Assembly (NCBI RefSeq): GCF_023476645.1
Contig: NZ_JAMCOJ010000001.1
Coordinates: 744,001 to 808,000, forward strand
Length of the DNA: 64,000 bases
Direction: 5' to 3'
Source: Cellulophaga sp. 20_2_10
Lineage (GTDB): Bacteria > Bacteroidota > Bacteroidia > Flavobacteriales > Flavobacteriaceae
Positions 35,863-63,027 of the stretch are shown here, piece after piece. Position numbers and translations under genes: made by a program. Position 1 is the stretch's first letter; each line of letters begins with the position of its first letter. Under the pieces are notes generated by a model that saw nothing but the letters and a program-made list of their open reading frames with translations, was not told where the DNA came from and did no database searches.

Positions 35863-35866
35863 AAAA

Positions 35867-36176
35867 AGAGCAGGCAATAAGCCGGATTCTGTAAAGCTTC
35901 TAAAAGAAACTCCCCTATCATTTATCTAGGCTTTTGGTTACCCAAAAGCTCAAACCGCCTACCCTTTAGCTTGGGCGTGTACCCTTATAACGCTAATTTA
36001 CATGGCGTTGCACCGCATAGAGTTTACCTGGTTTCACTACAGCATTACCTGTACATACTTTCTGCTGCACTTGTCCTCGTCTTACAACGGACGGGCGTTA
36101 CCCGCTATACTGCACTATGGTGTCCGGACTTTCCTCTTTACAAAATAAATTGTAAAGCGATAGAGTAACCTGCTCG
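35867..36176 (-). ncRNA. rnpB: RNase P RNA (type A)
   Basis: On the minus strand the sequence contains the universal 5' element GAGGAAAGTCCGGAC, the GTAACGCCCG region, the ACAGTAATG-like segment of the core and the 3' element ACAGAATCCGGCTTAT. The P1 helix pairs GAGCAGG at one end with CCTGCTC at the other, fixing the ends to within a few bases. The RNA is the catalytic part of RNase P, which removes 5' leaders from pre-tRNA. A U-run after P1 can serve as terminator. Length about 310 bases. Confidence 0.95.
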
Positions 36177-57865: not shown

Positions 57866-58300
57866 TTATAATCCAATTCTAACGCTAGGTACCCCAATAC
57901 CAACGCTAGTTCTTACTACATTAGAACGCCTTGGTGCTCTTCTGTAATTATTTTGACTATAGTAGTACGTAGTATGACTATGGTAGTAATCACTATGGTG
58001 ACAATGAGAATTGCAATGCTCAGCGTGTTCTGCATAAGCATCTCTCTTACCTTTCATATACGCTCTATAGGCTTTTCTATCTCTTTTCTTTAAATCTTTT
58101 TCATAAGCCTTTTGCTCATCCCAAAACTCTTCTTCGTCTTCTGTTACTACTTCAGTAGACTGCTCGTAAGCAGCATCTTCTTGCGCACGTTGCTGGTAAT
58201 AAGATAACTTTTCCTTTTCTGTAGTTTTCTTCTCCTGTGCTGTCACAGTAAATGTCATTGCAATTATAAATGCAGGCAATAAAAAATGTAGTTTTTTCAT
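57866..58300 (-). CDS. Secreted His/Tyr-rich protein of unknown function
   Basis: The 144-residue protein has a signal peptide (M-K-K-L-H-F-L-L-P-A-F to T-V-T-A-Q, about residue 22). A charged, coiled-coil-like middle follows (E-E-E-F-W-D-E-Q-K-A-Y-E-K-D-L-K-K). The C-terminal third is rich in His, Tyr and Ser with C-N-S-H-C-H-H and H-S-H-T-T-Y-Y-Y. The His/Cys cluster could bind metal. I know no family; it may be lineage-specific. The region upstream holds the small-RNA triplet. Confidence 0.75.
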   Translation of the reverse strand: MKKLHFLLPAFIIAMTFTVTAQEKKTTEKEKLSYYQQRAQEDAAYEQSTEVVTEDEEEFWDEQKAYEKDLKKRDRKAYRAYMKGKRDAYAEHAEHCNSHCHHSDYYHSHTTYYYSQNNYRRAPRRSNVVRTSVGIGVPSVRIGL

Positions 58301-58496
58301 AAAATCTGGATTTTTAGTTTAAATAATTACAACATTCTTCAACATTGCAATACCAACTTATAACAGCTATCATTTAAAAAACCCTACTTTATTTTTTAAA
58401 AAAAATTAAAACAACATAAGTTTCTTTACTAACAACAAGTATCTAGCAGTTGACAACATAAAATTTAAAAAACAAAACACTCATTATATATTAGCG

Positions 58497-58581
58497 GTAT
58501 AGTTAGTTAGAATAAATTTTTCATTTTCATATAGTGTTCTCGTAAAAAGAGTCTTGTTTTTGCCGACAAGACTCTTTTTCA
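58497..58581 (+). ncRNA. Candidate small RNA, copy 1
   Basis: About 85 bases from just after TATATATTAGC to the terminator. The stem is AAAAAGAGTCTTG with CAAGACTCTTTTT and the loop TTTTTGCCGA. The 5' end is a guess from the conserved upstream block. No ORF. Expected to be an independently transcribed RNA, because the terminator closes the unit before the next copy begins. Confidence 0.6.
58544..58580 (+). terminator. Intrinsic terminator of small RNA copy 1
   Basis: 13-bp stem, 10-base loop, T-run. Symmetric A/T ends mean it could act in both directions. Confidence 0.85.
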
Positions 58582-58718
58582 TTTAAAACCTTTTGTTTTT
58601 CTATTCATTTTTTTATTGATAAAAAAGCAAAAACCACATAAGTTACTTTACAAACAACAACTATCTAGAGGTTGACAACATAAAATTTAAAAATCAAAAC
58701 ACTCATTATATATTAGCA

Positions 58719-58803
58719 GTATAATTAGTCAGAATAAATTTTTCATTTTCATATAGTGTTCTCGTAAAAAGAGTCTTGTTTTTGCCGACAAGACTCTTTT
58801 TCA
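58719..58803 (+). ncRNA. Candidate small RNA, copy 2
   Basis: Same layout and length as copy 1, with identical terminator stem and loop; three changes lie in the 5' part just after TTAGC. Confidence 0.6.
58766..58802 (+). terminator. Intrinsic terminator of small RNA copy 2
   Basis: Identical to the copy 1 terminator. Confidence 0.85.
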
Positions 58804-58837
58804 TTTAAAACCTTTTCTATTTTTAAACGCAACCTCC

Positions 58838-58880
58838 CTTTTTAAATTAGTAGTTTTATTTTTAAATTAGTAGTTTTATT
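58838..58880 (+). repeat. Two-copy direct repeat of about 21 bp
   Basis: TTTTTAAATTAGTAGTTTTA occurs twice head to tail in the AT-rich insert between small RNA copies 2 and 3. No function visible. Confidence 0.7.
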
Positions 58881-59077
58881 TTTTTCAGATTGATAAAACT
58901 CGCTTTTCACCAAAATGAAGATTTACTACAGCGTACGAGAATTATTGAAAACCAATATTTATTCATTTTTTTCATTGATAAATAAGTAAAAACAACAAAA
59001 GCTTCTTAACTAACCACAATTCTAAAGCAGTTGACAACATAAAATTTATTAAACTACATCTCCGTTATATATTAGCG

Positions 59078-59163
59078 GTATAGTTAGTTATAATAAAAAT
59101 TTTCATTTTCATATAGTGTTCTCGTAAAAAGAGCCTTGTTTTTGCCGACAAGGCTCTTTTTCA
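59078..59163 (+). ncRNA. Candidate small RNA, copy 3
   Basis: Same layout, one base longer. The stem reads GAGCCTTG with CAAGGCTC, so one T-A pair has become C-G on both sides (a compensatory change) while the loop stays TTTTTGCCGA. The upstream spacer differs in sequence from copies 1 and 2 but not in length. Confidence 0.6.
59126..59162 (+). terminator. Intrinsic terminator of small RNA copy 3
   Basis: Same hairpin with one compensated base pair. Confidence 0.85.
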
Positions 59164-59326
59164 TTTTAGATATTTATTATTATAAAGTATACACCATAAA
59201 ACTCACTATAAATTCTAGACACTTTTCTTCCTACTTCCAAAACGTATAAAATAGGCGTAAGAAGAAATTAACAATCACCCCTAAAAACTGTTAACTATTC
59301 TTCTAAAAAAATACACTTAAAAAGTG

Positions 59327-59334
59327 TAAATTTG
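59327..59334 (+). promoter_or_regulatory. purL promoter, -7 box TAAATTTG
   Basis: Perfect TAnnTTTG. The predicted RNA start (near 59340) lies after the upstream in-frame start at 59332, supporting the ATG at 59368. Confidence 0.55.
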
Positions 59335-59367
59335 TGGCTTGTTAAACAAAACAACACAAGAGCTACA

Positions 59368-62300
59368 ATGATTCACTTTTTCGGAGACCATTCCAGCAAA
59401 ATCTTTGCTGTAGAAACCAAAAACAATCTTACACCAGAAGATATTACCAAGTTAACTTGGCTTTTTGGCAACAATCCTAAAATAAATGCGGCGTCTCTTG
59501 ACGCCTTTTTTGTTGGCCCAAGAGCAGCTATGATAACCCCTTGGAGTACAAATGCCACAGAAATTACCCAGAATATGGGTGTAGAAGGTATTTTTAGAAT
59601 TGAAGAATTTTTTGCTTCTACCGCAGATGCTAAAGATTTTGACCCAATGATTTCTCAGAAATACGCACAATTAAATCAGGATATTTTTAAAATTGATAGC
59701 ACTCCTGAAGCTGTATTACCAATTGAAGATATTTCAGCTTACAACCAACAAGAAGGTTTGGCTTTAAACGATGAAGAAATTGCTTATTTAGAAGGTGTAG
59801 CTACTAAAATAGGAAGAAAACTAACAGATTCTGAAGTTTTTGGTTTTAGCCAAGTAAACTCAGAACACTGCAGACATAAAATATTTAACGGCACATTTGT
59901 AATAGATGGTCAAGAAAAACCATCTTCTTTATTCAAATTAATAAAGAAGACTTCTCAAGAAAATCCAAGTACTATTGTTTCTGCTTATAAAGATAATGTT
60001 GCTTTTATAAAAGGACCTACTGTAACACAGTTTGCTCCAAAAACAGCAGATAAGCCCGATTTTTACCAAGAATCAGAATTTAACTCTGTTATTTCATTAA
60101 AAGCGGAAACGCACAATTTCCCAACAACTGTAGAGCCATTTAATGGTGCTGCAACTGGTTCTGGTGGAGAAATTAGAGACAGACTTGCTGGCGGAAAAGG
60201 TTCTTTACCCTTAGCTGGTACTGCGGTGTATATGACATCATACTCTAGGTTAGAAGAAAATAGACCTTGGGAAAAAGCAATGGAAGAACGTCCATGGTTG
60301 TACCAATCACCAATGGATATTTTAATAAAAGCATCTAACGGGGCTTCAGATTTTGGAAACAAATTTGGACAACCTTTAATTACTGGTTCTGTTTTAACTT
60401 TTGAGCATCAAGAAGATGCTCGTAAACTTGGGTTTGATAAAGTTATTATGCAAGCTGGAGGTATTGGATATGCTAAAGAAAACCAAGCTTTAAAAGACGA
60501 ACCTAAAGAAGGTAACAAAATAGTAATTCTTGGTGGCGACAATTACCGTATTGGTATGGGTGGTGCTGCTGTTTCTAGTGCAGATACGGGCGAATTTGCT
60601 TCTGGTATTGAGTTAAATGCAGTACAACGTTCTAATCCAGAAATGCAAAAAAGAGCAGCAAATGCTATTCGTGGTTTGGTAGAAAGTGAGGAAAACCCTA
60701 TTGTTTCTATTCACGATCACGGTGCAGGCGGACACTTAAACTGTTTGTCTGAACTTGTAGAAGATACAGGCGGACATATAGATTTAGACAAATTGCCTGT
60801 TGGCGATCCTACATTATCTGCTAAAGAAATTATTGGCAACGAATCTCAAGAACGTATGGGTCTTGTTATTGGTAAAGACGATATGGGCTTACTAAAGCGT
60901 ATTGCAGAACGTGAGCGCTCTCCAATGTACGAGGTTGGCGAAGTTACAAACAACCATAGATTTACATTTGAGTCTAAAACTACGGGAGAAAAACCGATGG
61001 ATTTAGCTCTAGAAGATATGTTTGGGAGTTCTCCAAAAACAATCTTAACAGATAAAACTGTTACACGTAATTATGAAAACCCTAATTATTCTTTAGAATT
61101 TTTTCACGATTACTTAGAGCAAGTTTTACAATTAGAAGCCGTAGGTTCTAAAGACTGGTTAACAAATAAAGTAGACCGTTGTGTTGGTGGCCGTGTTGCC
61201 AAGCAACAATGTGCTGGTCCATTACAATTGCCACTTAACAATTGTGGTGTAATGGCTTTAGACTTTAAAGGTAAAGAAGGTATTGCTACTTCTATTGGTC
61301 ACTCTCCTATTTCAGGATTAATAGACCCAGCTGCAGGTAGTAAAAATAGTATTACAGAAGCTTTAACTAATATTGTTTGGGCTCCTTTAAAAGACGGATT
61401 AAAATCTGTTTCTTTATCTGCAAACTGGATGTGGCCTTGTAAAAACGAAGGTGAAGATGCACGCTTGTATGAAGCTGTAGAAGCTGTATCTGAATTTAGT
61501 ATTGCTTTAGGCGTTAACGTACCAACTGGTAAGGATTCGCTTTCTATGAAGCAGAAATACAAAAATGAAGAAGTTATAGCTCCAGGAACCGTTATTATAT
61601 CTGCTGCTGCAAACTGTAACAATATTAACCAAGTAGTAGAGCCTGTTTTACAAAAAAACAGCAATGCTATTTACTACATAAACCTATCTAAAGACACCTT
61701 TAAATTAGGTGGTTCTTCTTTTGCTCAAACGCAAAACAAAATAGGAAATAGCGCTCCAAATGTTACTGATGCTGCTTATGTAAAAACAGTATTTAATACA
61801 TTACAAGACGCTATTAAAGCTGACAAAATTAACGCCGGACACGATGTTGCCTCTGGTGGTTTAATTACAACTTTATTAGAAATGTGTTTTGCTGATGTTA
61901 ATTTGGGTGCAAACTTAGACTTATCTGCTTTAGGCGAAGAAGACACTATAAAGTTATTGTTTGCTGAAAATGCTGGTGTTGTTTTTCAAGCAGATGCAAG
62001 TGTAGAAACTTTATTTGCTAACGCTGGAGTAACTGCTATTAAAATTGGTTCTGTGGTTGAAGAAGCTACACTAACCATCAAAAATAACGGTATGGAAATG
62101 GGCCTAAACGTAACTTCTTTAAGAGATACGTGGTTTAAAACATCATACTTATTAGACAATAAGCAAACAGCAAATAATTTAGCTAAAGACAGATTTGATA
62201 ATTATAAAAATCAGCCTTTACAATATACTTTCCCTGCTAACTTTACGGGTAAATTACCTTTAATTAATGGAGAAAGACCAAAAGCAGCAATTTTACGTGA

Positions 62301-63027
62301 AAAAGGAAGTAATTCTGAACGTGAAATGGCAAATGCAATGTTCTTAGCTGGTTTTGATGTAAAAGATGTGCATATGACTGATTTAATATCGGGACGTGAA
62401 AATCTAGAGGATATTCAGTTTTTAGGTGCCGTTGGTGGTTTCTCTAATTCTGATGTACTTGGTAGTGCAAAAGGTTGGGCTGGAGCAATTAAGTATAACG
62501 AAAAAGCAAACAAAGTAATAAACAACTTCTTTAAAAGAGAAGACACCTTGTCTATTGGTATTTGTAACGGTTGTCAGTTATTTATGGAATTAGACCTTAT
62601 TAACCCTGAGCACGAGAAACACGGAAAAATGACATATAACGATTCTCATAAACACGAGAGTAACTTTACATCTGTAACCGTAGAAGAAAACAACTCTGTA
62701 ATGTTATCTACTTTAGCAGGTACTACTTTAGGTGTTTGGATTAGCCACGGTGAAGGTAAATTTAGCTTACCACAAGCCAAAGAAAACTACAATATTGTTT
62801 CTACTTATGGGTATGAAGGCTATCCTGCAAATCCAAATGGTAGTGATTTTAACACTGCTATGTTGTGTGATAAAACAGGAAGACACTTAGTTACAATGCC
62901 ACATATAGAGCGCTCTACGTTCCAATGGAACTGGGCAAATTACCCAACAGACCGTAAGGACGAAGCTACGCCTTGGCTAGAAGCATTTACAAATGCTAGA
63001 GAGTGGATTTTAGAGCAAAAAGGATAA
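59368..63027 (+). CDS. purL: Phosphoribosylformylglycinamidine synthase (large, fused form)
   Basis: The 1219-residue enzyme carries out the fourth step of purine synthesis, FGAR to FGAM, using glutamine and ATP. From the ATG it begins M-I-H-F-F-G. Visible elements are the N-terminal PurS-like part and two AIRS-like halves with N-S-E-H-C-R-H-K, A-E-T-H-N-F-P-T-T-V-E-P-F-N-G-A and D-H-G-A-G-G-H-L-N. The C-terminal glutaminase has nucleophile Cys1069 in C-N-G-C-Q and its His in P-H-I-E-R. Fused PurL of this size is typical of Bacteroidota and Proteobacteria. Monocistronic. Confidence 0.96.
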   Translation: MIHFFGDHSSKIFAVETKNNLTPEDITKLTWLFGNNPKINAASLDAFFVGPRAAMITPWSTNATEITQNMGVEGIFRIEEFFASTADAKDFDPMISQKYAQLNQDIFKIDSTPEAVLPIEDISAYNQQEGLALNDEEIAYLEGVATKIGRKLTDSEVFGFSQVNSEHCRHKIFNGTFVIDGQEKPSSLFKLIKKTSQENPSTIVSAYKDNVAFIKGPTVTQFAPKTADKPDFYQESEFNSVISLKAETHNFPTTVEPFNGAATGSGGEIRDRLAGGKGSLPLAGTAVYMTSYSRLEENRPWEKAMEERPWLYQSPMDILIKASNGASDFGNKFGQPLITGSVLTFEHQEDARKLGFDKVIMQAGGIGYAKENQALKDEPKEGNKIVILGGDNYRIGMGGAAVSSADTGEFASGIELNAVQRSNPEMQKRAANAIRGLVESEENPIVSIHDHGAGGHLNCLSELVEDTGGHIDLDKLPVGDPTLSAKEIIGNESQERMGLVIGKDDMGLLKRIAERERSPMYEVGEVTNNHRFTFESKTTGEKPMDLALEDMFGSSPKTILTDKTVTRNYENPNYSLEFFHDYLEQVLQLEAVGSKDWLTNKVDRCVGGRVAKQQCAGPLQLPLNNCGVMALDFKGKEGIATSIGHSPISGLIDPAAGSKNSITEALTNIVWAPLKDGLKSVSLSANWMWPCKNEGEDARLYEAVEAVSEFSIALGVNVPTGKDSLSMKQKYKNEEVIAPGTVIISAAANCNNINQVVEPVLQKNSNAIYYINLSKDTFKLGGSSFAQTQNKIGNSAPNVTDAAYVKTVFNTLQDAIKADKINAGHDVASGGLITTLLEMCFADVNLGANLDLSALGEEDTIKLLFAENAGVVFQADASVETLFANAGVTAIKIGSVVEEATLTIKNNGMEMGLNVTSLRDTWFKTSYLLDNKQTANNLAKDRFDNYKNQPLQYTFPANFTGKLPLINGERPKAAILREKGSNSEREMANAMFLAGFDVKDVHMTDLISGRENLEDIQFLGAVGGFSNSDVLGSAKGWAGAIKYNEKANKVINNFFKREDTLSIGICNGCQLFMELDLINPEHEKHGKMTYNDSHKHESNFTSVTVEENNSVMLSTLAGTTLGVWISHGEGKFSLPQAKENYNIVSTYGYEGYPANPNGSDFNTAMLCDKTGRHLVTMPHIERSTFQWNWANYPTDRKDEATPWLEAFTNAREWILEQKG

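Follow-up and report, generated by a model that had tools for sequence, protein, structure and literature searches.

What is encoded by the three apparently non-coding units that lie head to tail between a minus-strand gene (57866-58300), probably for a secreted protein, and an open reading frame named purL (59332-63027, with a likely ATG at 59368) in Cellulophaga sp. 20_2_10? A preliminary description of the 64,000-nt stretch of DNA analysed here, hereafter called the window, had read them as genes of sibling small RNAs (sRNAs). To our knowledge, little is known about post-transcriptional control in Flavobacteriaceae. The units appear to represent an sRNA family of many genera for which a direct target can be predicted and a promoter code and a regulon proposed. 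In marine bacteria that live on surfaces, the family may connect the assembly of the envelope with gliding or adhesion.

Three tandem units with a common architecture

The tandem arrangement proposed earlier was confirmed by alignment and by a direct repeat of 216 nt starting at 58388, 58610 and 58969; copies 2 and 3 are respectively 90% and 63% identical to copy 1 in ungapped comparison. The block of about 35 bases that had been seen as common to all copies corresponds to 34 nt, TTTTCATTTTCATATAGTGTTCTCGTAAAAAGAG, which are invariant in the alignment. Each unit is composed of three ACMACAW boxes in exact 21-bp steps, followed after 27 bp by the element TATATTAG and, 23 or 24 nt further, by a 24-nt core, a hairpin and T residues. 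The upstream spacer was thus wrongly described as drifting freely, since the spacing of the boxes within it is exact. The core, TTTTCATTTTCATATAGTGTTCTC, is identical in the three copies and is found three times in the window and never in 100 shuffles. Likewise, the 21-bp double-box pattern is found six times in the window, which corresponds to the three box triplets, and never in 100 shuffles.

All these features lie on the plus strand. In copy 1, the three boxes, putative activator sites, span 58411-58459 (58411, 58432 and 58453) and the promoter element, 27 bp past the third box, lies at 58487-58494. The predicted sRNA of about 86 nt, with presumed ends at 58500 and 58585, would contain the core (58518-58541), which is antisense to the target start codon discussed below, and the terminator hairpin (58544-58579, arms 58544-58557 and 58566-58579). 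In copy 2, the boxes span 58633-58681 (58633, 58654 and 58675, again 21 bp apart), with the promoter element at 58709-58716, the predicted sRNA at 58722-58807 (ends presumed), the core at 58740-58763 and the hairpin at 58766-58801 (arms 58766-58779 and 58788-58801). The corresponding positions in copy 3 are 58992-59040 for the boxes (58992, 59013 and 59034, with the same 21-bp spacing), 59068-59075 for the promoter element, 59081-59168 for the predicted sRNA, whose ends are presumed as well, 59100-59123 for the core and 59126-59161 for the hairpin (arms 59126-59139 and 59148-59161). Boxes and cores were located by pattern and core searches, the core of copy 1 also by its pairing; the promoter elements by their sequence and their spacing across 186 copies; and the hairpins by their repeat arms, completed by folding for copies 1 and 2, covariation for copy 1 and alignment for copy 3.

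A hairpin was indeed present in each copy as previously stated, with a length that needed correction: the arms measure 14 nt, and not 13, and are 100% complementary. The two-sided change noticed in the stem of copy 3 holds and concerns exactly one base pair, from T-A to C-G. The predicted RNAs of copies 1, 2 and 3 fold with energies of -19.1, -19.2 and -20.3 kcal/mol (z-scores of -4.41, -4.31 and -4.32), most of which is supplied by the terminator hairpin; for copies 1 and 2, the prediction adds a weak stem of 6 bp that touches the 3′ part of the core. On reading the sequences, we found no conservation between copies of a minus-strand mini-ORF starting with MKMK.

Rfam gave no family at gathering score in the sRNA region. 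It returned 18 matches at E ≤ 10, the loose ones at the locus lying below gathering, and neither Flavo-1 nor 6S-Flavo, the leads given by the preliminary description, is among them. No Rfam sRNA family reached the gathering level in ten related loci either. The sole gathering-level match of the whole window is RNase P, whose RNA (class A) lies on the minus strand at 35863-36176.

A multicopy family with an invariant core

The genome of Cellulophaga sp. 20_2_10 (4.17 Mb in 58 contigs) holds seven copies. Besides the triplet of the window there is another tandem triplet, and the seventh copy stands alone, flanked by a DEAD-box protein gene and by what we take, from its appearance, to be a menB-like gene. 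The gap between a short DEAD-box protein gene and this menB-like gene is a recurrent site for the sRNA (loci L042, L048, L049 and L009), and the first three of these loci have a further copy, placed between the DEAD-box gene and a gene for a serine hydrolase.

In a comparison of 60 genomes, 22 matched, namely the genome itself, every one of its 17 congeners and, among the 42 others, four, of which G023 matches weakly and in the promoter part only. The exact 22-nt core was found in at least 120 stretches of named genomes, and the matches listed include Maribacter, Allomuricauda/Flagellimonas, Zobellia, Arenibacter, Robiginitalea, Eudoraea, Muriicola and others. A covariance model matched 91 of 397 genomes of the family at E ≤ 1e-3, of which 71 at E < 1e-9 and 20 weakly (E from 4e-5 to 1e-3). 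Among 246 genomes of the order, 13 matched, 6 of them strongly, all Flavobacteriaceae, and 7 weakly, within the same range of E values. Four of these seven weak matches were read: they possess terminators and differ from the core at 9-10 of 24 positions, an agreement that other parts of these loci reach as well. Weak matches were therefore left out of the family, which is present in at least 32 genera (30 genera plus two from the 60-genome comparison) with several copies per genome.

Among 62 copies from BLAST-guided loci, the core is free of mismatches in 57, with one mismatch in two, three in one and five in two. Over all loci, we collected 188 distinct copies (from Cellulophaga, Maribacter, Muricauda, Zobellia and their kin), 187 of which show no mismatch over 21 nt, a figure that is biased because 120 loci were retrieved by the exact core and at most two mismatches were permitted. 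With a box-to-element gap of 26-29 bp and a box-to-box spacing of 20-22 bp accepted, box and promoter element lie at the expected spacing in 174 of the 186 copies with enough upstream sequence; the gap is 27 bp in 173 of these and 28 bp in one, and a spacing of exactly 21 bp is seen in each of the 159 box pairs. All 188 copies have a 3′ hairpin with an energy of -8 kcal/mol or better. In 51 aligned copies, both-sided changes occur at all nine hairpin pairs and 97.6% of the cells pair. The covariation score is 0.671, compared with 0.343 for shuffled alignments and no more than 0.151 for slid ones. Of the five covariation measures, two do not stand out clearly from the shuffles, 32 and 68 of 500 of which score as high. 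This covariation supports the hairpin, as it might for any terminator, and is by itself no proof of a trans-acting RNA.

Two of the checks suggested in the preliminary description, a search of other Flavobacteriaceae genomes and a covariation analysis of homologues, speak for its reading of the units as sibling sRNAs. There are several homologous copies per genome, nearly all with a predicted promoter and terminator of their own, and these share a seed with a conserved predicted target (see below). Altogether, judging from sequence, the units almost certainly form a family of sibling sRNAs with their own promoters and terminators. We recognised no report of this RNA in searches of the open PMC literature, judged mostly from the result listings, and this family of a marine Flavobacteriaceae clade is apparently undescribed.

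Complementarity to the start of a TPR-protein gene

The complement of the core, GAGAACACTATATGAAAATGAAAA, resembles a gene start region. In the genome of Cellulophaga sp. 20_2_10, one likely gene start carries 17 nt of this complement, and it belongs to a gene for a TPR protein of about 1010 aa. We defined the pairing run as the continuous match to the core across the TPR-gene start, with G-U allowed. Such a run, 11-17 nt long, covers the start codon of this gene in every one of the 19 sRNA-bearing genomes G000-G018. The prediction was then put to 30 further sRNA-bearing genera, where the run reaches at least 10 nt in 28 and at least 11 nt in 25, the exceptions being G143 (run of 8) and G175 (run of 6). 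In contrast, among 36 orthologues from genomes lacking a strong sRNA match (11 + 25, with G020 and G023 included despite their weak matches), one reaches 10 nt and none 11 nt. The pooled figures, 47/49 versus 1/36, are not 85 independent observations, because the sRNA-bearing genomes are related. Mean duplex energies are -19.8 and -17.4 kcal/mol in sRNA-bearing genomes versus -7.6 and -7.3 kcal/mol in those without a strong match.

As a baseline, 94 of 1001 other ORF starts reach a run of 10 and 31 a run of 11. With shuffled cores (300 or more), a run of at least 10 is obtained at a mean of 1.45 of the 30 target starts, compared with 28 for the true core; the maximum, 27, comes from one shuffled core and reflects the relatedness of those starts.

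Within Cellulophaga, the predicted pairing falls into two registers. Register 1, found in 7 of the 19 genomes, all Cellulophaga and including the species of the window, pairs over 15-17 nt up to position +13 through CTATATGAAAATGAAAA or its ATATGAAAATGAAAA part. Register 2, found in the 12 others (eleven Cellulophaga and G018), extends from -9 or -8 to +3 or +4 with the sequence [G]AGAACA(C/T)TATG. Among the 30 further genera, G166 shows register-1 pairing with ATGAAAATGAAAA. Among 38 of the 42 register-2 sequences (G166, G143, G175 and G190, with fewer than six matches, were excluded), 17 substitutions are found in the 7 nt before the ATG, and every one keeps the pairing by G-U. The 9-nt site has 22 pairing-breaking changes, all of them confined to its two initial bases, which are thus hardly under constraint. 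The change of register and the wobble-only substitutions are, in the sequences compared, the features least explained by common descent. Taken together, these data make direct pairing of the sRNA core with the start of the TPR gene very probable.

The target protein (1007 aa in Cellulophaga sp. 20_2_10) has TPR repeats, assigned to Pfam TPR families, behind a signal-like start, and matches NCBIfam tol_pal_ybgF above the cut-off. The gene is present in 25 of 25 sRNA-lacking genomes and is thus independent of the sRNA. A gene for a 589-aa protein begins 15 nt past it. This second protein has no match in Pfam, NCBIfam or PDB sequences, and we consider it a putative outer-membrane protein from its sequence features, since the fold predicted from a two-row alignment (pLDDT of 25.7) was uninformative. 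Upstream of the TPR gene, in the opposite direction, lies an ABC ATPase gene, presumably ftsE from its look. The available portion of a paper on the Bacteroidota BAM (PMC12611786) offers no name for the TPR protein.

Genes behind the same boxes

A stricter version of the box pattern gave 39 sites in eight sRNA-bearing genomes (reversed-pattern control, 5) and none in four genomes without the sRNA (control, 1). By position, 15 of the 39 precede sRNA copies and 24 lie elsewhere. The promoter element is found 27-28 bp past the box at 13 of these 24 sites and is absent at 11, several of which (L394, L396 and L402, for example) look like chance. With a looser pattern, the genome of Cellulophaga sp. 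20_2_10 has 29 sites versus 21 for the control: 12 at sRNA copies, 9 in ACA repeats and 8 others.

The genes that recur behind the boxes were identified by BLAST among the sites. A TPR histidine kinase is found in four genomes of three genera, with the HisKA_2 domain (Pfam) in both proteins tested; in G018 it is split over two frames. A giant protein, 6087 aa long in G004 and 5710 aa long in G072, carries a T9SS type B signal in both genomes, and that of G072, the one scanned with Pfam, contains SprB repeats and is followed by a PorP/SprF gene. In G072, a CHU_C protein, with a relative (L224) in Cellulophaga sp. 20_2_10, likewise precedes a PorP/SprF-type gene. An LRR protein also recurs, as does a short protein that we assume to be CrcB-like, the box lying about 260-340 nt upstream. 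Because SprB-type and PorP/SprF genes are among those recurring behind the same boxes, the sRNAs may well belong to a surface-adhesin regulon, a link to which we give about even chances.

Other transcripts may start from these promoters. Four apparently non-coding stretches of roughly 150-180 nt (L411, L412, L413 and L416), with one or more CCCAAAT elements, a terminator-like end and no Rfam match, lie behind the same box promoters and are possibly a second RNA family of the regulon. In Cellulophaga baltica (L397, G017:C35:103975), a hybrid stretch lies behind a box promoter: CCCAAATC comes first, then a variant of the core into which 2 nt are inserted, and then a terminator. A conserved small protein is possible at L231 (in Cellulophaga sp. 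20_2_10) and L405 (in G072), where short ORFs, about 33-40 codons long and alike in their FFSG...LTKKLFM end, also lie behind box promoters.

LytTR proteins bind two direct repeats about 21 bp apart. The spacing of the boxes recalls this, and there are 18 LytTR matches in the genome of Cellulophaga sp. 20_2_10, with nothing to tie one of them to the boxes. Besides LytTR proteins, a partner of the TPR/HisKA_2 kinase is a candidate for the factor that reads them. At two loci (L040 and L041), sRNA copies alternate with genes for 302-aa proteins. These were considered as LytTR regulators and rejected, their domains (HATPase_c and HisKA) being those of histidine kinases.

Proposed mechanism and alternative explanations

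We propose the following mechanism. A candidate transcription factor would bind the tandem ACMACAW boxes, 21 bp apart, and activate the TAnnTTWG promoter, from which an RNA of about 85-90 nt ending at its own terminator would be made. The 24-nt core of this RNA would base-pair across the start codon of the TPR-protein mRNA and block translation initiation of the operon for the TPR and putative outer-membrane proteins. The same factor would read the boxes before the sRNAs and before the SprB-type adhesin operons. The family, its promoter architecture, the conserved hairpin and the complementarity that is conserved and co-occurs with the sRNA can be read from the DNA itself. We infer that the units are transcribed with the ends given above, that the effect is repression rather than activation and that one common factor reads the boxes. 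Since the core is complementary to the start of a conserved envelope gene, the RNAs probably switch off its translation. As a whole, this mechanism of box-activated sibling sRNAs blocking translation of the TPR operon appears likely to us. Several results weigh against it: the short runs in G143 and G175, the breaking changes in the site, the two covariation measures close to the shuffles, the looser box pattern with 29 sites versus 21 for the control, and the core complements and AGAACAYTATG sites that do not exceed their controls (see below).

The units could instead be DNA-level repeats, mobile elements or spare terminators, as their tandem, multicopy and intergenic arrangement would suggest. 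Such elements would hardly be expected to keep box and promoter element at a fixed distance, as 174 of 186 copies do, nor to change their hairpins by compensation while the core is invariant; in addition, the copy of L009 lies on the strand opposite to both neighbours and no phage or plasmid match was found for copy 1. We thus regard this explanation as extremely improbable. If the units are RNA genes, their very long invariant and mostly unpaired stretch, present in multiple copies, might serve to bind a protein, in which case the RNAs would be decoys titrating that RNA-binding protein, following a CsrB- or RbpB-like logic; the available part of PMC11697453 describes binding of the RbpB protein to FopS sRNAs in Bacteroides. 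This remains improbable as a sole function, as it leaves unexplained the match of the TPR-gene start to the core in 47 of 49 genomes, its two registers and the wobble-only changes next to the start codon; a decoy role could nevertheless act in addition to target pairing.

A more serious contender, which we still find rather doubtful, is that the RNAs are real and act on many mRNAs, their two anti-AUGAAAA stretches dampening AUGAAA starts, so that the TPR gene would be just one target. Core-complementary 9-mers occur in 55 of 794 ORF start regions versus a mean of 16.4 for 300 shuffled cores (two of which are as high), and the enrichment is seen at ORF starts and not inside genes. The frequency of ATGAAAA starts explains part of it, however, and at least one of the 55 ORFs is the antisense of an sRNA copy. 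At starts that are probably genuine, the individual candidates are an aminopeptidase C-like gene in Cellulophaga sp. 20_2_10 and, in G018, a serine hydrolase gene close to one of the sRNA copies and a sulfatase-like gene, all three names being our presumption. Against multiple targets, 18-nt complements of the core with at most three mismatches are no commoner than the control in the genome of Cellulophaga sp. 20_2_10 without its seven sRNAs (16 sites versus 16). In the 12 genomes searched, AGAACAYTATG is not enriched either, being rarer than its control in the eight that bear the sRNA (62 versus 87); of these 62 sites, 52 were retrieved, and 11 of them coincide with a likely gene start, the TPR gene being the only one of these to recur from genome to genome.

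Returning to repression of the TPR operon by the sibling sRNAs, a broader scheme can be tentatively drawn, which we consider slightly more apt to fail than to hold. The sRNAs would be the post-transcriptional arm of a two-component regulon of marine Flavobacteriaceae that turns on SprB-type gliding adhesins and PorP/SprF and turns off the TPR/outer-membrane operon through the two-register core, the surface being rebuilt for adhesion or gliding. In this scheme, the target would have switched register within Cellulophaga with pairing kept.

Comparison with known systems

Among systems with several near-identical sibling sRNAs, a long shared core and one regulator are Qrr, LhrC and csRNA. They belong to other phyla and have other regulators and targets; in sequence, the comparison with them is that of the Rfam scan of the window.

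Within Flavobacteriaceae, Rfp18 of Flavobacterium psychrophilum is, in the part of PMC9723704 available, an sRNA that pairs through its third stem-loop and has protease targets. Like the RNAs described here, it is a conserved trans-acting sRNA of this family of bacteria; going by its description there, it appears to be a different sRNA, and the words multicopy and paralog are absent from the main text of that paper.

FopS of Bacteroides thetaiotaomicron appears to be the nearest known case. As far as the accessible text of PMC11697453 goes, its 14 paralogues have a terminator and a seed that is single-stranded; they block translation at start codons and target outer-membrane protein mRNA, a susC homologue. 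Both groups are multicopy sibling sRNAs of Bacteroidota that pair at start codons, the pairing in Cellulophaga being predicted from sequence. They differ in host family, in the 21-bp box-array promoter of the Cellulophaga RNAs and in the conserved target, which is a TPR-protein gene here and a susC homologue for FopS. An Rfam model for FopS has been deposited according to the same source; no gathering-level match to FopS was obtained in the window with an Rfam copy that may not include this model. The two would be alike in their working. The Cellulophaga RNAs appear to be a new family of the already known sibling-sRNA kind, that of FopS, Qrr and LhrC. They would point to start-codon antisense by sibling sRNAs as a strategy that reaches beyond Bacteroides and its FopS to Bacteroidota more widely.
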